A stretch of DNA of 33,737 nucleotides from the NCBI GenBank assembly GCA_036491125.1, contig DASXCO010000034.1, positions 1 to 33,737 of the forward strand. The letters are read 5' to 3'. Each line of letters begins with the position of its first letter. The stretch's first letter is position 1. The DNA comes from Acidimicrobiales bacterium. GTDB taxonomy: Bacteria > Actinomycetota > Acidimicrobiia > Acidimicrobiales > AC-9. This document shows positions 2,649 through 30,133 of this stretch, piece by piece. Under the pieces are notes generated by a model that was not told where the DNA came from, searched no databases, and saw nothing but the letters and a program-made list of their open reading frames with translations. The position numbers and the translations under genes were made by a program.

Positions 2649-3314
2649 ATGCCTCGTCTGACCCTCACGTTCGACAACGGGCCTCACCCGGAGACGACAG
2701 AAGGGGTCCTCCGGGTGCTCGACGAGCGGCAGTTGCGGGCCACCTTCTTCGTCGTGGGTGACGAGCTGGCCCGGTCCGGCGGCCGAGCCACCGCCGAAAG
2801 GGCCCGGGCGGCGGGCCACTGGATCGGCAACCATTCGATGACCCACCAGGTGCCGCTCGGTGACGGCGGCGACGACGGCGACCAGGCCGAGGAGGAGATC
2901 GGCGCCGCCCAGGAGCTCCTGGGCGATCTGGCCCACCCTGACCGGCTGTTCCGGCCGTTCGGCGGGGGTGGCCATCTCGGGCCCCACCTGCTCAGCCCGG
3001 CCGCCCTGGCCTACCTGGTGAAGCACCGCTACAGCGTCGTGCTTTGGAACAGCGTGCCCCGCGACTGGGAGGACCCGACCGGGTGGGTCGAACGGGCCCG
3101 CCAGGACGTCGCCAACCAGGAGTGGACGGTGCTCGTCCTCCACGACCTCCCGACCGGGGCCATGGACCACCTGGCCGCGTTCATCGACGGGGAGCTGGCC
3201 GCCGGCGTCGAGATCGTCCAGGAGCTGCCCGAAGGATGCGTGCCGATCCGGCGGGGCGTGACCCGGGGGCCCGTCGAGCATCTCGTCGCATCAGGCGTGG
3301 CTCCGGACGGCTAG
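2649..3314 (+). CDS. NodB-type polysaccharide deacetylase family protein
   Basis: Carbohydrate esterase family 4-like protein of 221 aa, probably acting on an N-acetylated or other acyl-carrying polymer. Motif 1 is TFDNGP at residues 7-12: Asp9 sits at the catalytic-base position, but the second Asp of the usual TFDDGP, a metal ligand, is Asn10. Motif 2 is intact as HSMTH (His62 and His66). A Trp-containing segment (VLWNSVPRDWED) and VLVLHDLP stand for motifs 4 and 5, while the usual RPPYG motif is replaced by RPFGGGG. No signal peptide or membrane segment is seen. GTG at 2634 is an alternative start giving 5 more residues. The gene ends overlapping its convergent neighbour by 3 bases in a CTAG. 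Substrate unknown. Confidence 0.75.
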   Translation: MPRLTLTFDNGPHPETTEGVLRVLDERQLRATFFVVGDELARSGGRATAERARAAGHWIGNHSMTHQVPLGDGGDDGDQAEEEIGAAQELLGDLAHPDRLFRPFGGGGHLGPHLLSPAALAYLVKHRYSVVLWNSVPRDWEDPTGWVERARQDVANQEWTVLVLHDLPTGAMDHLAAFIDGELAAGVEIVQELPEGCVPIRRGVTRGPVEHLVASGVAPDG

Positions 3315-6904: not shown

Positions 6905-7710
6905 TGGACCACCTCCGCCGGCAGCAGGCTCCCATCACGGACGGCGGGTGGGGCGCAATCGACGCCGAGGCGACGCGGACGCTCCGCCACTTCCTCGCCG
7001 CTCGGCCCCTGGTCGACTTCCAGGGCCCGATGGGGTGGGACCACTCGGCGAGCAACCTGGGCCGCACCGAGCCCGTGGCCTCGGCCGCGGAGGGCGTCGA
7101 GCTCCGGCGTCGTCTGGTCCAGCCCCTCCTCGAGCTGCGGACGCCGTTCACCCTGTCGAGAGACGAGCTCGACGCCGTCGATCGGGGCGCGAACGATCCC
7201 GATCTCTCCAACCTCATCGAGGCCGGTCGGCGTGCCGCCGCGGCCGAGGACCGAGCCGTCTTCCACGGCCACCGCGAAGGGGGAATCGTGGGCATGACGG
7301 AGGCCAGCCCCCATTCCCCGCTCCCGATCGACGACAACTACAACGTGTACCCGCGCACCGTCGCCAAGGCGGTCGCGACCCTTCGCACGGTCGGGGTCGG
7401 CGGCCCGTACGGCATCGCCCTCGGACCTCGTTGCTACACCGGGGTCATCGAGACGACCGAGCACGGCGGCTACCCCGTGCTCGAGCACATCCGTCTCATC
7501 CTCGGGGGGCCGATCATGTGGGCGCCCGCCGTGGACGGCGCCGTCGTGGTCAGCCTGCGGGGCGGCGACTACGTGCTCGCGTGCGGTCAGGATCTCGCCG
7601 TCGGCTACCTCGACCACACCGAGTCGGCGGTGCACCTGTACTTCGAGGAGAGCCTGAGCTTCGCTGTGAACGAGCCTGCGGCCGCCGTCGCCCTGCAGTA
7701 CCCGAGCTGA
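6904..7710 (+). CDS. Encapsulin shell protein (Linocin-M18/family 1)
   Basis: 268-aa HK97-fold shell protein that self-assembles into a protein nanocompartment. Features matching the family are the N-terminal APITDGGWGAIDAEATRTL, the segment RPLVDFQGPMGWDHSASNLGR, FTLSRDELDAVDRGA, an E-loop-like REGGIVGM, PYGIALGPRCYTG, and the C-terminal FEESLSFAVNEPAAAVAL. Length is within the 260-270 aa usual for family 1. Translation from ATG 6904 overlaps the ferritin stop. With the ferritin cargo this is a complete two-gene iron-storage compartment; no flavin-binding shell domain or peroxidase cargo is present nearby. Confidence 0.96.
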   Translation: MDHLRRQQAPITDGGWGAIDAEATRTLRHFLAARPLVDFQGPMGWDHSASNLGRTEPVASAAEGVELRRRLVQPLLELRTPFTLSRDELDAVDRGANDPDLSNLIEAGRRAAAAEDRAVFHGHREGGIVGMTEASPHSPLPIDDNYNVYPRTVAKAVATLRTVGVGGPYGIALGPRCYTGVIETTEHGGYPVLEHIRLILGGPIMWAPAVDGAVVVSLRGGDYVLACGQDLAVGYLDHTESAVHLYFEESLSFAVNEPAAAVALQYPS

Positions 7711-7895
7711 GCGCCCTGGGCGACCACTGTCCAGAGGCCCGCCGGGGCGCTGGCGACTCGCCTTGACCAGGGCTGGTCGCCGAACGTTCAGCGAGGAATC
7801 GCCATGCCGTCACACCGTGGCAACGGCCCTGTTACCTGAAGGTGTCACAGTCCTTCGGGACTTTTGCGTTCGCTGCAGGGTCACCAGGGAGAGAC

Positions 7896-8165
7896 ATGCA
7901 CTCCAGGTCGGCTCACGCTCCATCCGTCCTCCCGGCGGGCACGTCCATCGAGGTGCGCTGTCACCTCAATTGCCCCTGGTCGCCCGGCTTCGAGATCGAG
8001 GAGGCGGTCCTCGTCGACGACGAGGTCGGCTACCGGATCCGGCGGGCCGCCTCCAGTCGGGCCCTACCGGCGGTGTTCGGCCCTGACTACATCCGTCGGC
8101 TCGGCCGACGCAGCTCGGATTTGGTCGTGTCGGGACGGCGAGAGTTGGAGCGGTCTTCAGCTTGA
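7896..8165 (+). CDS. Small conserved-looking protein of unknown function
   Basis: 89 aa from ATG 7896, chosen because AGGGAGAG at 7886-7893 is a good ribosome binding site; an upstream in-frame ATG at 7842 lacks one. The sequence SIEVRCHLNCPWSPGFEIEEAV, then GYRIRRAASSRALPAVFGPDYIR, has the feel of a compact beta-barrel protein with a W-x-x-GFEI motif that I associate with small hypothetical proteins of actinobacteria. No signal peptide or metal motif. It lies between the encapsulin and pstS genes, separated by 185 bp from the former and 52 bp from the latter. No function can be assigned. Confidence 0.6.
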   Translation: MHSRSAHAPSVLPAGTSIEVRCHLNCPWSPGFEIEEAVLVDDEVGYRIRRAASSRALPAVFGPDYIRRLGRRSSDLVVSGRRELERSSA

Positions 8166-8209
8166 GTTAACCCAGGATCCATCTTGGCGTCACCGGTCCG
8201 ATCTATGTT
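8142..8209 (+). promoter_or_regulatory. pstS promoter region with 22-bp spaced half-sites (putative)
   Basis: TATGTT at 8204-8209 resembles a -10 element and ends 8 nt before the GTG start of pstS, so the transcript may be nearly leaderless. Upstream, GAGTTGGAG (8142), GAGTTAACC (8164) and GGCGTCACC (8186) are spaced exactly 22 bp, two helical turns. The last two are reminiscent of GTTCACC-type actinobacterial PHO boxes, but the canonical 11-bp repeats between them are missing. Weak evidence. Confidence 0.3.
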
Positions 8210-8217
8210 GCTGTTTC

Positions 8218-9357
8218 GTGCCTCACAACCCGATCGCTCAGTCAAACCGACGCGCTCGCAACCGGATCGGTCGGCGCTCCGCCTTCGGTGCCGCCGCCTT
8301 GGCCGTGGCACTCACGGCCGCAGCCTGCGGTAGCTCCAGCACGACCTCGAGCAGCTCGACGACCACCTCGGGCAGCTCCGGCAACACGAAGGTGCAGTGC
8401 GCATCCGGGACCATCACCGGTGCCGGGTCGACCTTCGTGAACACGATTCTCCTGCAGTGGATCAAGAACTACCAGGCCGCCTGCTCTGGTGCCACGATCA
8501 ACTACCAGAGCGTCGGATCGGGTGCCGGCGTGCAGCAGTTCACCGCTGGCACGGTGAACTTCGGGGCTAGTGACGTCCCGTTCGCGGCGAGCGAACAGGC
8601 CGCCGCCAACGCCAAGTATCCCCCCAGCGCCGTGCAGATCCCCTGGGCCGCCGGACCGGTTTCCATCGAGTACAACCTCCCGGGGGTGAACAACCTCAAG
8701 TTGTCGCCCACCACGCTGGGCGGCATCTTCGCCGGCAAGATCAAGACTTGGAACGATCCGGCCATCGCAGCCGACAACGCGGGAACGAACCTGCCCTCTA
8801 CAGGCATCCAGGTCGTGCACCGCTCGGACGCGTCGGGCACCACGGCCGCATTCACCGGCTACCTGACGGCGGTCGCCGCTCAGACCTGGACCTTCGGTGC
8901 GGCCAAGGACGTCCCGTGGCCCGCCGGCCAGGGCGCCAAGGGATCCGACGGCGTGACCGCGGTGGTGAAGCAGACCAGCGGATCGATCGGCTACGCCGAG
9001 CTGTCCTACGCCAAGGGCGGCCAGGTCTCCACGGCGAGCGTCAAGAACGCGTCGGGACAGTTCGTCCAGCCCTCGTCGGCGGGGGCGACTGCGGCCCTGG
9101 CCAACACCACGGTCAATCCCGACGGGACGGCCAAGATCAACTACCTGGCGACTGGTGCCACCGTCTATCCGATCTCCACGCTCACGTGGGTCCTCCTTCC
9201 GATGAAGTCGCCCAGCGCTGCCGTCGGCACCCTGCTCAAGGACTTCGTCCTGTACGCCCTCGGCCCGGGTCAGCAGTCGGCCAACCAGCTCTTCTACGCG
9301 CCGCTGCCCCCCAGCGTGGCCAGCACGAGCCAGACCTTGGCGGCCGGCCTCAGCTGA
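8218..9357 (+). CDS. pstS: Phosphate ABC transporter substrate-binding lipoprotein
   Basis: Binds phosphate outside the membrane and hands it to PstCA. 379 aa from GTG 8218. A basic n-region (RRARNRIGRR) and hydrophobic stretch lead to lipobox LTAAAC with Cys37, followed by a Ser/Thr linker (SSSTTSSSSTTTSGSSG). PstS signature segments are present: GTITGAGSTFVNTILLQW, VGSGAGVQQFTAGTVNFGASDVPF, HRSDASGTTAAFTGYL and QTSGSIGYAELSYAKGG. The Ser and Asp residues in these segments form the phosphate pocket in the family. First gene of pstS-pstC-pstA, separated from pstC by a 124-nt spacer with strong alternative hairpins. Confidence 0.95.
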   Translation: MPHNPIAQSNRRARNRIGRRSAFGAAALAVALTAAACGSSSTTSSSSTTTSGSSGNTKVQCASGTITGAGSTFVNTILLQWIKNYQAACSGATINYQSVGSGAGVQQFTAGTVNFGASDVPFAASEQAAANAKYPPSAVQIPWAAGPVSIEYNLPGVNNLKLSPTTLGGIFAGKIKTWNDPAIAADNAGTNLPSTGIQVVHRSDASGTTAAFTGYLTAVAAQTWTFGAAKDVPWPAGQGAKGSDGVTAVVKQTSGSIGYAELSYAKGGQVSTASVKNASGQFVQPSSAGATAALANTTVNPDGTAKINYLATGATVYPISTLTWVLLPMKSPSAAVGTLLKDFVLYALGPGQQSANQLFYAPLPPSVASTSQTLAAGLS

Positions 9358-9384
9358 GGGTTCGGTAGAGACCGGTGATCGATA

Positions 9385-9436
9385 CCGCGCCCCCGACTTG
9401 TGCGCCAGCCCAGCGGGGGCGCGGTGGCGCGCCCCC
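9385..9436 (+). promoter_or_regulatory. Mutually exclusive hairpins between pstS and pstC
   Basis: Three complementary segments lie in the pstS-pstC gap. A is CCGCGCCCCC (9385-9394), B is GGGGGCGCGG (9415-9424), C is CGCGCCCCC (9428-9436). A and B pair perfectly over 10 bp with a 20-nt loop; B and C pair perfectly over 9 bp with a GTGG loop. B cannot pair with both, so the arrangement resembles an attenuator. There is no U-run after either hairpin. It could protect the pstS message 3' end, partly terminate transcription, or switch; the pairing is seen, the role is inferred. Confidence 0.6.
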
Positions 9437-9481
9437 GAGCGAGCTTCTGGCGGCGGCTGCTGACAGTAGAGGACCGACCTT

Positions 9482-10456
9482 GTGAGCGTGCTGGATAGTC
9501 AGGTCCCGCTCGGCGACCGATTCCGAGACACCGGAGGTGGCCGGGGGGACCAGCGGGCCCGCATCGTGGTGGCCGGCGGCGGCATCTTCGTGCTGGTGCT
9601 CATCGTCGCCATCCTCATCTTCTTGTTCGTCGAGGCCAGACCGGCCTTCACGACCGCGGGGTGGAGCTTCTTCACCACCAAGACGTGGTTTCCGGACGCC
9701 ACGCCCCCCGTCTTCGGGGTCGCTGCCCTGGTCTTCGGAACCGTGATCTCGAGCCTGGTCGGGGTCGTGATCGCCACCGTCGTGGCCATCGGTGCGTCTC
9801 TGTTCATCACCGAGGTGGCCCCCCGGGCGATCGGACGGCCGCTCGGCTACGTGATCGACCTCCTGGCCGCGGTCCCGAGTGTGATCTTCGGGCTGTGGGG
9901 TCTGGTGTATGTGGTCCCGAAGCTGATCCCGGCGGAGAAATGGCTCAACAGCGTCTTCGGGTGGTTCCCGCTCTTCTCGAACCCGGGACAGCTGTACGGC
10001 CGGTCGATCTTTGCCGCCTCGGTGATCCTGGCCATCATGGTGCTACCCATCATCGCGGCCGTCTCCCGCGAGGTGTTCCGCCAGACGCCCACCGCCCACC
10101 GAGAGGCAGCCGTCGCTCTTGGAGCGACGCGGTGGGAGACGATCCGCCTGGCGGTGTTCCCGTATTCCCGGAGCGGGGTGGTCGGGGCGATCATCCTGGG
10201 GCTGGGACGCGCCCTCGGCGAGACGATCGCCGTGGCCCTGGTACTGGCGCCGAGCTTCGTCGTCAACATCCACATCCTCCAGCCCGGGAACAACACCATC
10301 GCCGCCAACATCGCCACCAAGTTCGGGGAGTCCGGGAGCCTCGGCCGCGAGGCGCTGATCGCCTCGGGCCTCGTGCTGTTCGCCATCACCCTTCTGGTCA
10401 ACATGGCGGCCCGGGTGTTCGTTCGGGCGCCGTCCTTCGGCCGGGGCGGCGGGTAG
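9482..10456 (+). CDS. pstC: Phosphate ABC transporter permease PstC
   Basis: 324-aa inner-membrane subunit of the high-affinity phosphate importer. A short cytoplasmic N-terminus precedes about six membrane helices (first at residues ~28-50). The ABC-permease coupling (EAA) motif is REAAVALGATRWETIRLAVFPYSRSG, and AAVPSVIFGLWGL and GRALGETIAVALVLA are segments typical of PstC. GTG 9482 is the start. The stop codon TAG (10454-10456) is directly followed by the ATG of pstA, so the two permeases are translated together. Confidence 0.95.
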   Translation: MSVLDSQVPLGDRFRDTGGGRGDQRARIVVAGGGIFVLVLIVAILIFLFVEARPAFTTAGWSFFTTKTWFPDATPPVFGVAALVFGTVISSLVGVVIATVVAIGASLFITEVAPRAIGRPLGYVIDLLAAVPSVIFGLWGLVYVVPKLIPAEKWLNSVFGWFPLFSNPGQLYGRSIFAASVILAIMVLPIIAAVSREVFRQTPTAHREAAVALGATRWETIRLAVFPYSRSGVVGAIILGLGRALGETIAVALVLAPSFVVNIHILQPGNNTIAANIATKFGESGSLGREALIASGLVLFAITLLVNMAARVFVRAPSFGRGGG

Positions 10457-11323
10457 ATGGATACCGCCCTGTCCAAGCCCCGGCCCCGCCGGATGTGGGT
10501 GGACCGACTGGCCACCCTCGTCATGGTCGTCGGCGCGATCCTCGCTCTCATCCCGCTGGTCGGGGTCATGGTGTACACGGTGGGCAAGGGTTTGAGCGCG
10601 ATCGACTGGAGCTTCCTCTCGACGACCATGCGCGGCGTCGGGCCCCTCGACACCACCGGCGGCATCTACCACGCGATCGTGGGCACGATCGAGCAGGTCC
10701 TGATCGCCAGCCTGATCGCCGTACCGCTGGGGATCCTGGCCGCGATCTACACCGTCGAGTACGGCCGCGGCCTGCTGGCGGCCGCCGTGCGGTTCTTCAT
10801 CGACGTCATGACCGGCATCCCGTCGATCGTGGCCGGTTTGTTCATCTTCTCGTTCTGGGTCCTCGCCCTTCACCAGGGATTCTCGGGATTTGCCGCGGGC
10901 ATGTCGTTGGCCGTGCTCATGCTGCCGGTCGTGGCCCGAGCCTCCGAGGAGATGCTCAAGCTCGTCCCCGATGAGCTTCGGGAGGCCAGCTACGCGCTCG
11001 GCGTTCCCAAGTGGCGAACGATGCTGTCGGTTGTGCTGCCGGTGGCCACGGCCGGCATCACCACCGGGGTCATGCTCGCCGTCGCCCGCGTGACCGGTGA
11101 GACGGCGCCCCTCCTTCTCACCTCCTTCGGCTTCGACTCGGTGAACTACAACCCGTTCCACGGACCGCAGTCGGCCTTGCCTCTGTTCGTGTTCCAGCAG
11201 GCGACGTCTCCCTTCCAGGTCGCCGTGAACCGCGCCTGGGGGGCAGCCCTCGTGCTCATCCTGTTCGTCGTGCTTCTCTCGGTGATCGCTCGCCTGGTGA
11301 CACGGCGGAACCGGCTGACGTAG
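10457..11323 (+). CDS. pstA: Phosphate ABC transporter permease PstA
   Basis: 288-aa partner permease of PstC with about six membrane helices. Family segments include TTGGIYHAIVGTIEQVLIASLIAVPLGI, IDVMTGIPSIVAGLFIFSFWVL and the EAA-type coupling motif REASYALGVPKWRTMLSVVLP, followed by RVTGETAPLLLTSFG. ATG 10457 abuts the pstC stop. Normally pstB (ATPase) and phoU follow; here the next gene is a convergent sigma factor, so the ATPase that powers this transporter must be encoded elsewhere. Confidence 0.95.
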   Translation: MDTALSKPRPRRMWVDRLATLVMVVGAILALIPLVGVMVYTVGKGLSAIDWSFLSTTMRGVGPLDTTGGIYHAIVGTIEQVLIASLIAVPLGILAAIYTVEYGRGLLAAAVRFFIDVMTGIPSIVAGLFIFSFWVLALHQGFSGFAAGMSLAVLMLPVVARASEEMLKLVPDELREASYALGVPKWRTMLSVVLPVATAGITTGVMLAVARVTGETAPLLLTSFGFDSVNYNPFHGPQSALPLFVFQQATSPFQVAVNRAWGAALVLILFVVLLSVIARLVTRRNRLT

Positions 11324-23846: not shown

Positions 23847-26800
23847 GTGGTGCTGAGGTCGTGGCCGGTCGCCCGACAGGTGCTGGGCCGGGACCGGTTC
23901 GGTCGGGGTCCGGCGGCCCGATCTCCCCGCTCGGCCAACCTGGCGCCGCGGACCGCCGCCGCCCGGGATGTTGTGGGGTCGATCTGCCCCTATTGCGCGG
24001 TTGGCTGTGCCCAGCGCGTGTACGTCCGCGACGGCGTGGTCACCCAGATCGAGGGAGATCCGGACAGCCCTGTGTCGCGCGGCCGCCTGTGCCCGAAGGG
24101 CGCAGCGAGCAAGCAGCTCGTGAGCGGGCCGCTCCGTGAGCGCAAGGTCCGGTACCGCCGCCCGCACAGCAGGACGTGGGAGGACCTCGATCTCGACTCG
24201 GCGATGGACATGATCGCCGACCGGGTCATCGATACGCGCCGACGGTCATGGGAGTGGGAGGAGGGAGGCAGGCGCACGCGCCGCACCATGGCCATCGCCA
24301 GCCTTGGCGGGGCGACGCTCGACAACGAGGAGAACTACCTCATCAAGAAGCTCTACACGGCGCTCGGGGCGCTGCAGATAGAGAACCAGGCCCGCATATG
24401 ACACTCCGCCACGGTCCCCGGTCTGGGGACCTCGTTCGGCCGCGGTGGGGCGACCACCTTCCAACAGGATCTCCAGCACTCGGACTGCATCGTGATCGAG
24501 GGCTCGAACATGGCCGAGTGCCACCCGGTCGGGTTCCAGTGGGTGATGGAGGCCAAGTCGCGAGGGGCCACGATCATCAGCGTGGATCCGCGCTACACCC
24601 GTACCAGCGCGCTGGCCGATGTCTACGTGCCTCTGCGGCCCGGCAGCGACATCGCCTTCCTCGGCGGGCTCATCAACTACGTGCTGAGCGAGGGCAAGGA
24701 GCTGCGCGATTACGTGGCGGCCTACACGAACGCAGCCACCATCGTTGGCGAGGACTTCCTTGACACCGAGGACCTGGACGGTGTCTTCTCCGGCCTCGAA
24801 CCGGAGCGGCGCTCCTACGACTCGTCGAGCTGGCAGTACGACGGCGCGATGGTTCTCGCCTCGGCGGGCCAGCGTGAGCAGTGGCGGCTGGCGAGTGACC
24901 AGCCGGGGACCCATCAGCACGGCAGCCACGGGGCGGCGCTGCCGGGGGGCCGAGGTGAGCGGGACGACACGCTCACCCATCCCCGATGCGTCTTCCAGCT
25001 CCTCAAGCGCCACTACGGCCGCTATACGCCCGAGATGGTCGAGCAGGTGTGCGGGATTCCGCCCGCCCAGTTCTTCGAGGTGGCCCGGGCGATCACGGAC
25101 AACTCCACCCGCGACCGCACCACGGCCTTCGCGTACTCGGTCGGGTGGACCCAGCACACAGTGGGTGTGCAGTACATCCGGGCCGCATCGGTGCTCCAGC
25201 TGCTCCTCGGCAACATCGGGCGGCCGGGGGGCGGGATCCTCGCCTTGCGGGGCCACGCCAGCATCCAGGGTTCGACCGATATCCCCACGCTCTACGACCT
25301 GCTTCCCGGCTACATCCCCATGCCCCACGCCCACGACGAGCAGGCGCTCGATCAATTCGTCGAGGCCAACGCGGCCCGGACCGGGTACTGGGGGAACATG
25401 CGCGCCTACCTCGTCAGCCTGCTCAAGGCGTACTGGGGTGGAGCAGCCACCCCAGAGAACGACTTCTGTTTCGACTACCTGCCCCGCGTCACGGGCGACC
25501 ACAGCACCTATCAGACCGTGCAGTCCCAGATCGACGGCCGCGTCAAGGGCTACTTCCTCGTCGGCGAGAACCCGGCCGTCGGATCGGCCAACGGCAAGAT
25601 GCAACGGCTCGGCCTAGCCAACCTGGACTGGCTGGTCGTGCGCGACCTCACCATGATCGAGAGCGCCACGTGGTGGCTGGACGGCCCCGAGATCGAGACC
25701 GGCGAGCTGCGCTCCGAGGACATCGCCACCGAGGTCTTCTTCCTCCCGGCGGCTGCCCACACCGAGAAGGACGGAAGCTTCACCAACACCCAACGCATGC
25801 TGCAATGGCACCACCAGGCGGTGGAGCCGCCCGACGATGCCCGCAGCGACCTGTGGTTCTACTACCACCTCGGGCGGATCATCAGGGAGAAGCTGGCCGG
25901 CTCCACCGACGAGGCTGATCGTCCTCTTCTCGACCTGGCGTGGGACTATCCGACCGAGGGCCGGCTGGCCGAGCCCAGCGCTGAGGCCGTCCTGGCCGAG
26001 ATCAACGGGCGGGACGCCGGGGGCCGGCCGCTGTCTGCGTTCACCCAGCTAGCCGACGACGGGTCGACGGCGTGCGGCTGCTGGATCTACTGCGGCTGCT
26101 ACGCCGACGGCGTGAACCAGACGGCTCGGCGCAAGTCGGGCGCCGAGCAGTCGTGGGTGGCCCCCGAGTGGGGCTGGGCGTGGCCCGCAAACCGGCGGCT
26201 GCTCTACAACCGGGCCTCGGCCGATCCTGCCGGGCGCCCGTGGAGTGATCGCAAGGCGTACGTCTGGTGGGACGCGCAACAGGGTGAGTGGACCGGACAC
26301 GACGTCGCCGACTTCCCCAGGACGACGCCGCCCGACCACGAGCCGGAGCCCGGTGCGGTGGCCGAGCACGCGCTCGGCGGGCGCGACCCGTTTGTCATGC
26401 AAGCCGACGGCAAAGGCTGGCTCTACGCGCCGGCGGGCCTGACCGATGGTCCGTTTCCCACCCACTACGAGCCGCAGGAGTCACCATTCGACAATCCCCT
26501 GTACGGCCATCAGTGCAACCCGGTCCGCCAGGTCTTCGCCCGGCGGCACAACCGCTATCACCCGAGCGGCTCCAGCCCCGGCGCCGAGGTGTTCCCCTAC
26601 GCGGTGACGACCTACCGGCTGACGGAGCATCACACCGCCGGCGGGATGAGCAGGGCGCTGCCTTATCTGTCCGAGCTGCAGCCGGAGATGTTCTGCGAGG
26701 TCAGCCCCGAGCTCGCCGCCGAGCGCGGCCTCGAGCACATGGGCTGGGCAACGATCATCAGCGCCCGTACGGCGATCGAGGCCCGGGTCATGGTCACGGA

Positions 26801-27089
26801 TCGAGTGGCGTCCCTGAACGTCGGCGGCCGCCGGCTCCAGCAGGTGGGCTTGCCATACCACTGGGGTGGCAACGGGCTCAGCAAGGGGGACTCGGCCAAC
26901 GATCTGCTTCCGGTCGTCCTCGACTCCAACGTGCACATCCAGGAGGCCAAGGCGGCCACGTGTGACATCCGGGCCGGCCGGCGCCCGCGCGGGCCGGCAC
27001 TGCTGGAGCTGGTCGAGTCCTACCGGGACCGCGCCGGCATTGGGCCGGAGACCGGCATCGAGCCGGGCGCGAGTGGGGAGGAGCCGTGA
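23847..27089 (+). CDS. fdhA: Formate dehydrogenase alpha subunit with selenocysteine (UGA read through)
   Basis: Molybdenum or tungsten bis-MGD enzyme that oxidises formate to CO2. 1,080 residues counting selenocysteine 185 at the TGA 24399-24401; both sides of the TGA are in the same frame and continue FDH homology: QARI-U-HSATVPGLGTSFGRGG. The usual U-H pair is intact. The N-terminal [4Fe-4S] motif is CPYCAVGC plus LCPKGA (Cys47, 50, 54, 82). A hairpin resembling a SECIS lies just after the TGA. GTG 23847 is forced because an in-frame stop of the preceding gene lies 9 nt upstream; no twin-arginine signal peptide is present, so this subunit probably stays in the cytoplasm. Followed by the beta gene with a GTGA overlap. 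Confidence 0.93.
24399..24431 (+). promoter_or_regulatory. SECIS-like hairpin with selenocysteine UGA
   Basis: UGA occupies 24399-24401. GGUCCCC (24413-24419) and GGGGACC (24425-24431) form a perfect 7-bp stem with loop GGUCU (24420-24424). The loop begins 18 nt after the UGA, the loop sequence and spacing I recall for E. coli fdhF, and it codes for the same Gly-Leu. Unlike E. coli there is no bulged U in the stem. It is read as the SelB binding site, inferred from structure and position. Confidence 0.8.
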
Positions 27090-28844: not shown

Positions 28845-29318
28845 TCACTGGTTGGCGGCCGCCGTGAGGACGTTGTGGGTGGCCTCGAGCTCTGCCGTGG
28901 CTTGGTCGAGCTCGCTGGTGGCTTGCGCGATCAGGCGCCCGTCGTCGTGGGTGGAGCCTGCGATGCAGTCGCTCGTGCCTCGGCCGAACAGGTCGAGGGC
29001 GGACCGCAGATGGGCGGCTGCGATGGCCTCGGGGATCGGAGGGAGGGCGAGGTACCCCTGAACGTCGTTCCAGACCGCCTGGCAGGAACCTACGAGGGCA
29101 GTCGTGTTGTAGGTGCTGGCGTCGTCGGCCACCGTGCTCGTGTCGTACGAGAGGGTGGAGAACAGGTCGGCGTGCTGTCGTCCCCACGAGGCGAGCGCCA
29201 CGGTCGCTGGCGCGATCGGCGCCGCGTTCCGCACCGTCGCCGTGGCGCAGGATGTCACCACGGCGCCCACGCCCACCAGCGCGAGCGCCGCGCCGCCGAT
29301 CCTCCCCCTCCTGCGCAT
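28845..29318 (-). CDS. Putative lipoprotein of unknown function
   Basis: 157 aa. A basic start (MRRRGRIGG) and hydrophobic stretch lead to lipobox VVTSC with Cys24. The mature part is helical, with cysteines in GSCQAVW and TSDCIAGS that may form a disulphide, and ends with a Glu/Gln-rich coil (TSELDQATAELEATHNVL). ATG 29318. Divergent from the response regulator gene; the shared 122-bp gap contains the 11-bp CTGAC array, so it may be controlled by that regulator. Convergent with the NrfD gene with only 17 bp between. Confidence 0.75.
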   Translation of the reverse strand: MRRRGRIGGAALALVGVGAVVTSCATATVRNAAPIAPATVALASWGRQHADLFSTLSYDTSTVADDASTYNTTALVGSCQAVWNDVQGYLALPPIPEAIAAAHLRSALDLFGRGTSDCIAGSTHDDGRLIAQATSELDQATAELEATHNVLTAAANQ

Positions 29319-29376
29319 TCCCCCCGGTCCTGTTCGCTCGAGCGATTCGGAACGGTCGTCAGACTACGGTTCACTT

Positions 29377-29420
29377 CTGACGATCATCTGACGAACTACT
29401 GACCTTTCCCTGACGGAGCC
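29377..29420 (+). promoter_or_regulatory. Four 11-bp CTGAC direct repeats (probable response-regulator binding array)
   Basis: CTGAC begins at 29377, 29388, 29399 and 29410, an exact period of 11 bp, with AT-richer spacers in the first three units. The first two read CTGACGATCAT and CTGACGAACTA. TCGTCAG at 29356-29362 is the inverted form. A period of 11 bp is what OmpR/PhoB-class regulators bind (compare CTGTCAT-type PhoB boxes of E. coli). The last unit ends where a -35 element would stand for the -10 at 29429. Confidence 0.75.
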
Positions 29421-29428
29421 CGGCGGTA

Positions 29429-29441
29429 CACAATGAGGGCG
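29429..29441 (+). promoter_or_regulatory. Probable leaderless promoter of the response regulator gene
   Basis: CACAAT (29429-29434) resembles a -10 hexamer and ends 6 nt before the GTG at 29441, so transcription would start at or next to the start codon. The CTGAC array takes the place of a -35 box. No Shine-Dalgarno stands at a proper distance, which fits a leaderless message. Confidence 0.5.
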
Positions 29442-30133
29442 TGGGGACCGCGGCCCGGACCGGCGAGCCAGCGAAGGTGCTGGTCGTGGAGGACGAGCCG
29501 ATCGTCCGGGACCTGCTGGTAACGGTCATGCGGACCGAAGGCTACGAGGTCGTGGCGGCCGCCGATTCCAGCGCCGCCCTCAGGCACGCCAAGTCGTTCC
29601 AGCCCCATCTGGCTCTCATCGACGTCCGCCTCGGCAACGGGCCCGACGGCTTCACCGTCGCCCGCCGTCTGCGGGAGGAGGCCCACGTGTCGCTGCTGTT
29701 CCTGACCAGTGCGGACGAGGCGGACGACATCCGGGCCGGGTTCGCCGCCGGTGCCGACCTCTACATCACCAAGCCGTTCTCCGTCGACTCCCTCCTCGTC
29801 CAGATCGAGGCGGTGCTGGCGCGGGCGGGCAAGTCACGCGAGGCGCACTGGGAGGTGGGCGACGTCGTCGTCGACGAGGCTGCCCGGGCCGTCACCCGGT
29901 CGGGGCAGCCCATGGACCTCACCCCGGTCGAGTTCGAACTGCTGTGCCACCTCGTTCGGCGCCCGGGACGGGTCGTCACCAAGACCCAGCTGCTGTCCGC
30001 GCTCTGGGGGTATCGGGACTACAACCCGAACGTCGTCGAGCGCCACATGAGCGCCCTGCGCCGCAAGCTCGAGGCCAACGGACCGCGGCTCATCCATACC
30101 GTGCACAGCGCCGGCTACGTCTTCCGTCCCTGA
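29441..30133 (+). CDS. OmpR/PhoB-family response regulator (orphan)
   Basis: 230 aa. The receiver domain (residues ~12-130) has the acidic pair in VVEDE, the phospho-acceptor Asp61 in LIDVRLG, Thr in LFLTSAD and Lys in YITKPF. A winged-helix DNA-binding domain follows: LTPVEFELLCHLVRRPGRVVTKTQLL, RHMSALRRKLE and IHTVHSAGYVF, all standard OmpR-family landmarks. No histidine kinase is adjacent, so its sensor is elsewhere. The CTGAC 11-bp array directly upstream suggests autoregulation. Its targets cannot be read; the box type and the pst genes make phosphate control a possibility, no more. Confidence 0.94.
   Translation: MGTAARTGEPAKVLVVEDEPIVRDLLVTVMRTEGYEVVAAADSSAALRHAKSFQPHLALIDVRLGNGPDGFTVARRLREEAHVSLLFLTSADEADDIRAGFAAGADLYITKPFSVDSLLVQIEAVLARAGKSREAHWEVGDVVVDEAARAVTRSGQPMDLTPVEFELLCHLVRRPGRVVTKTQLLSALWGYRDYNPNVVERHMSALRRKLEANGPRLIHTVHSAGYVFRP

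Follow-up and report, generated by a model that had tools for sequence, protein, structure and literature searches.

A GTCAG direct-repeat array with a phased −10 hexamer between a small lipoprotein gene and an orphan OmpR/PhoB-type regulator in Acidimicrobiales

The array and the genes on either side

The window analyzed here is the whole 33,737-nucleotide stretch of contig DASXCO010000034.1 (assembly GCA_036491125.1, positions 1 to 33,737) from an Acidimicrobiales bacterium of the AC-9 lineage. When inspecting the sequence between a small lipoprotein gene and a divergent gene for an OmpR/PhoB-type response regulator, we found that the word CTGAC begins on the plus strand at 29377, 29388, 29399, and 29410, in exact agreement with the initial annotation of this DNA. 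Read on the minus strand, the array has the form GTCAG-N6-GTCAG-N6-GTCAG-N6-GTCAG. The locus contains the following features.

28845–29318, minus strand: small lipoprotein gene, the main predicted target of the array (157 aa, lipobox-like VTSC)
29353–29355, minus strand: expected start of lipoprotein transcription, 6–8 nt past the −10 hexamer
29366–29361, minus strand: TAGTCT, predicted −10 hexamer of the lipoprotein promoter, separated from the last GTCAG by a 10-nt spacer (29367–29376)
29358–29362, minus strand: single inverted copy (CTGAC on the minus strand), overlapping the −10 hexamer
29377–29414, functional strand minus: four-unit 11-bp array, conserved in the two congeners, with further copies across the genome
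29429–29434, plus strand: CACAAT, possible −10 hexamer of the regulator gene if its message is leaderless, 6 nt ahead of the GTG
29441–30133, plus strand: OmpR/PhoB-type response regulator (230 aa, Response_reg and Trans_reg_C domains)

From the base composition of the window, the expected number of perfect four-unit CTGAC arrays is approximately 6e-8, and that of four-unit arrays of any 5-mer at period 11 is approximately 1e-3; a chance origin of the array is excluded. The spacers between the units differ, and the array is therefore not a simple tandem repeat.

The regulator matched Response_reg with 81.4 bits and Trans_reg_C with 81.7 bits, both above the cut-off. Inspection of the alignment showed that the receiver residues are present (VVEDEP, ALIDVRLG, FLTSAD, and TKPFS, providing the acidic pocket, the phospho-acceptor Asp, the Thr, and the Lys), and the protein belongs to the OmpR/PhoB family by both domains and receiver residues. 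Its orthologues within the genus are 86–87% identical, and the next best match, outside the genus, is 50% identical. The GTG at 29441 aligns with the ATG of both orthologues, which supports this start codon. No kinase gene was seen adjoining the regulator in the list of open reading frames of the window. The lipoprotein has orthologues of 65 and 75% identity in the two relatives and no match in Pfam or NCBIfam; it was predicted to be helical, with an anchor plus four helices, in a poor model (mean pLDDT 54).

The inverted copy had been placed at 29356 by the initial annotation, 2 nt from its true position, and had been taken to face the lipoprotein gene. It is missing from the orthologous loci of both congeneric genomes, and it is the array itself that faces the lipoprotein gene. 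Being unconserved and 2 nt from the position given for it, the inverted copy was rejected as a second site, and it is probably due to chance.

Elsewhere in the window, a formate dehydrogenase-like alpha subunit is encoded on the plus strand at 23847–27089. This gene contains one in-frame TGA at 24399–24401 in the context NQARI-U-HSATVPGL, and readthrough gives a single frame of 1080 residues. The TGA lies at the usual place of selenocysteine in formate dehydrogenase-like enzymes.

Recurrence and one-sidedness of the arrays

We scanned the genome of the window (G000) and both other genomes available for the genus (G001, which is 91% complete, and G002) with the three-unit pattern. With at most one mismatch, there were 12, 14, and 11 matches in G000, G001, and G002, respectively, and the reversed control gave 0, 1, and 1. 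The further three-unit matches in G000 lay on C26, C100, C178, C196, and C206. The total came to 21 arrays (six in G000, nine in G001, and six in G002), counted from all sites that had at most three mismatches or fitted the −10 coupled pattern described below, after removal of overlapping registers and of an isolated weak match, G002:C28. Most arrays consist of four units at 11 bp; one unit is displaced by one base in the G001:C193 and C168 arrays, and one inner unit is degenerate in those of C38 and C47. Thus, the motif did serve to find a set of recurrent sites, as had been proposed for it. The order lipoprotein–array–regulator is kept in both relatives, and the array, whose conservation the initial annotation had made a test of its proposal, is present upstream of the orthologous regulators in both of them.

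Among 298 genomes of the order, a few four-unit arrays were found outside the genus, several of them simple repeats with identical spacers, and the scan of the class, 395 genomes overlapping in part with the 298, gave only scattered one- or two-off matches. No comparable set of arrays was seen in these nearly 700 other genome scans of order and class, in which sets of non-repetitive arrays are limited to this genus. The genes for the closest regulators outside the genus (approximately 40–50% identity) have no such array upstream, the nearest being one weak three-unit repeat of a different word at L038. In another family of the class, G534:C402 (L215) carries two arrays of three units (CTGAC/CTGAA/CTGAC), separated by 4 kb, at 3203–3229 and 7314–7340, both with the same −10 offset as in the genus; immediately downstream of one of them is the gene for an OmpR-type regulator that is 34% identical to that of the window.

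When the 21 arrays were aligned, a hexamer of the form [C/T]AnnnT stood exactly 10 nt past the last GTCAG unit in 20 of them, the offset being derived from the same arrays and hence not blind, and the register of G001:C168 being set by hand to a CTTAC unit. The lone exception has the hexamer GATCAT, so that.AnnnT is found in 21/21. The background frequency of [C/T]AnnnT in the array flanks is 0.74%, no other offset among the first 50 on the GTCAG side was occupied in more than two arrays, and nothing of the kind recurred on the CTGAC side. If orthologous arrays are counted once, leaving 14 target families, and the number of offsets is corrected for, the chance of such a fixed offset is still below 1e-20. 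The coupled pattern ANNNTR-N10-CTGAC-N6-CTGAC matched 15 times in the three genomes, and its reversed control never; among the 15 are G001:C38 and G002:C47, which were absent from the arrays used to read the offset. Since the fixed −10 offset occurs on the GTCAG side only, the arrays are one-sided promoter elements. The predicted promoter served by the window array thus points to the lipoprotein gene and not to the regulator, the corresponding hexamers at the orthologous loci being TACCGT and TACTGT; the expected start at 29353–29355 was placed by the usual distance from a −10 to the start of transcription.

The genes found on the GTCAG side of the arrays, which constitute the predicted regulon, are as follows.

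Lipoprotein: 3/3 genomes
Membrane-anchored helical protein: C178, C193, and C132, 3/3 genomes (with a Tim44-like protein next in G000)
Small membrane protein: C26 and C121
MprF-like LPG synthase domain: G001 C31 and G002 C34
Zinc-ribbon-like small protein: C38 and C47
HtrA/DegP-like protease with zinc ribbon: G000:C206 (Trypsin_2 9.3e-28; Do-family 112.5 bits, below the cut-off of 416)
TPR and membrane protein: C100
Secreted or membrane proteins: C196, C59, C143, and C52
Short or unclear targets: C24, C152, and C168

A membrane or signal segment was found in 9/12 coding targets (eight passed the hydropathy cut, and C196 has a clear signal peptide) vs 44/114 background open reading frames. The targets at C24, C38, C168, and C152 are not obvious envelope proteins. 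This excess of membrane and signal segments makes it likely that the regulon has a role in the cell envelope. The C178 protein and the lipoprotein, which are the best-conserved targets, have the same predicted layout of an anchor and four helices; profile comparison gave no homology between the two, and a fold search with the C178 protein returned nothing at E <0.001, only generic helical bundles.

At G001:C168 (L105) and G002:C152 (L111), no clear long open reading frame was seen on the GTCAG side of the arrays. Both loci instead share a leader followed by a hairpin of very high stability (GGCGCCTGAG..CTCGGGCGCC), and the box may here control a small RNA or a peptide.

Candidate binders and competing explanations

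The analysis of the arrays supports the earlier reading of the 11-bp period as a head-to-tail site of the OmpR/PhoB type. The three genomes contain 17, 11, and 13 matches to the Trans_reg_C winged helix, and annotation of the array loci showed that, among the winged-helix regulators, only that of the window is seen beside an array, an adjacency that represents one conserved event and not three independent ones. The window regulator is lineage-restricted, as are the arrays; regulators such as those at C171 and C224 have counterparts outside the genus that are 70–82% identical. Provided that the direction deduced above is right, the window regulator is quite probably the binder.

The strongest alternative binder suggested by the sequences is a paralogue at G000:C238, 73% identical to the window regulator, which might act at the same site and in the same direction, either alone or together with it. 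The recognition helices are nearly identical (NVVERH(M/V)SALRRKLE), and the paralogue is found in all three genomes and is equally lineage-restricted. At L096, 2877–4912, the paralogue gene converges with a neighbour that matches the flippase half (flippase domain) of MprF, and in G001 and G002 it is the MprF-like synthase half that lies under the arrays. However, none of the three genomes has an array near the gene for this paralogue, and the conserved array adjoins the other regulator, so that we regard this alternative as unlikely.

It is much less probable that the binder is an AfsR-type SARP activator and not a response regulator at all. The afsS promoter of Streptomyces, to which AfsR binds, has two 11-bp repeats, with TTCAGC over the −35 and CACTGT as the −10 (PMC10936776). 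The arrays resemble it in having 11-bp direct repeats that overlap the −35, a similar word, and a −10 of the CACTGT type, but they have four repeats instead of two. An activator with a BTAD domain would also be needed; two such proteins were found in G000 and one in G002, whereas none was found in G001, the genome with the most arrays (91% complete), which weakens the case for a SARP. Moreover, no BTAD gene adjoins an array.

We consider it equally improbable that the array is autoregulatory, with its last unit serving as the −35 of a leaderless regulator promoter at 29429, as the initial annotation had proposed. The array is conserved upstream of the regulator, and the −10 hexamer postulated there does exist: CACAAT, CACAAT, and CACAGG stand 6 nt ahead of the aligned start codon in the three orthologues, so that a leaderless message is plausible. 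However, the distance from the array to the start codon is 26, 24, and 22 nt, and that from the last CTGAC to the hexamer 14, 12, and 10 nt, which is too short and too variable for a −35/−10 pair, and none of the 21 arrays has a phased −10 on the CTGAC side. The array was therefore rejected as the −35 of the regulator gene, and its role as an autoregulatory activator was likewise not borne out, the phased −10 lying on the opposite, GTCAG, side. Its effect on the regulator gene, if we infer correctly, is more likely to be occlusion (autorepression) or none than activation.

It is extremely unlikely that the array arose by chance or as a neutral tandem repeat and has no regulatory role: simple tandem repeats with identical spacers do occur among the 11-bp CTGAC arrays of other families, but in the genus the spacers vary between units and sites while the units and the −10 offset are constant, the array is conserved at orthologous loci, and the fixed −10 offset across arrays strongly disfavours this explanation.

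Relation to known systems and proposed role

The word of the Pho box is CTGTCA, which has the GTCA core in common with the word of the arrays. In Escherichia coli, Pho boxes consist of 8-bp repeats with 3-bp linkers, located 10 bp upstream of a TAN3T −10 (PMC1906773), and the structural model places PhoB next to sigma, over the −35 region (PMC3348028). The present arrays resemble this class II arrangement in having head-to-tail direct repeats with an 11-bp period that end 10 bp before a TAN3T-like −10, in one orientation (20/21 arrays), in lacking a proper −35, and in adjoining a regulator of the OmpR/PhoB type. They differ in the word, GTCAG vs CTGTCA, in consisting nearly always of four half-sites, and in their targets, which are not phosphate genes. 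The regulator scored 155.8 bits against the PhoB equivalog TIGR02154 (NCBIfam), below the cut-off of 296.2. A pstS-pstC-pstA-like phosphate transporter operon, recognized by eye on the plus strand at 7864–11323 of the window, has no CTGAC array, which argues against the regulator being PhoB.

The closest solved structures to the regulator by sequence are Mycobacterium tuberculosis PhoP (PDB 3r0j and 5ed4) and MtrA (2gwr). PhoP recognizes direct repeats of 7 bp separated by 4 bp, giving the same 11-bp period (PMC4832192); the site word differs, however, and the window regulator is restricted to the genus. Against the MtrA equivalog NF040689 (NCBIfam), the regulator scored 170.7 bits, with a cut-off of 300. 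A literature search for a known response-regulator site made of GTCAG direct repeats found nothing relevant. The predicted regulon is new, and its box is of an already known type.

In the Cpx system, cpxP and cpxRA are arranged divergently. Compared with this system (CpxR, CpxP, and DegP; PMC4160245), the present locus is alike in that an OmpR-type regulator lies beside a small exported helical protein under the predicted box of the regulator, and in that an HtrA/DegP-like protease is found among the array targets, in one genome only (G000:C206). It differs in that the lipoprotein has no family match, there is no adjacent sensor kinase, and the box is another one. The Cpx-like layout is attractive but unproven.

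Starting from the arrays, which were observed to recur with a fixed −10 offset and side beside a conserved gene pair, we think that the window array is probably a Pho-box-type class II activator site for the adjacent regulator, driving the lipoprotein gene and an envelope regulon. Two dimers of the regulator, most likely the product of 29441–30133, would bind the four head-to-tail 11-bp half-sites, a stoichiometry suggested by the number of half-sites. Once bound, the regulator would stand in for the absent −35 and bring RNA polymerase to TAGTCT (29366–29361, minus strand), by which the divergent lipoprotein gene would be switched on. The same site would serve a small genus-wide regulon of mostly exported or membrane proteins, plausibly as part of an envelope-stress response. 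More tentatively, it is possible that these uncultured soil actinobacteria have a lineage-restricted envelope-stress regulon, in which the orphan PhoB-type regulator, perhaps with its paralogue, would act on four-unit GTCAG boxes, with the divergent lipoprotein as a CpxP-like feedback or sensor protein and an HtrA-like protease and MprF-like lipid modification among the outputs.

Together, the motif and its fixed −10 spacing are selective enough for a regulon to be compiled from nothing but sequence in organisms that are probably uncultured. In divergent gene pairs, it is the phase of the −10, and not the proximity of a gene, that tells which gene a box serves. A regulator without an obvious partner thereby gains a testable list of targets and a likely role in the cell envelope.
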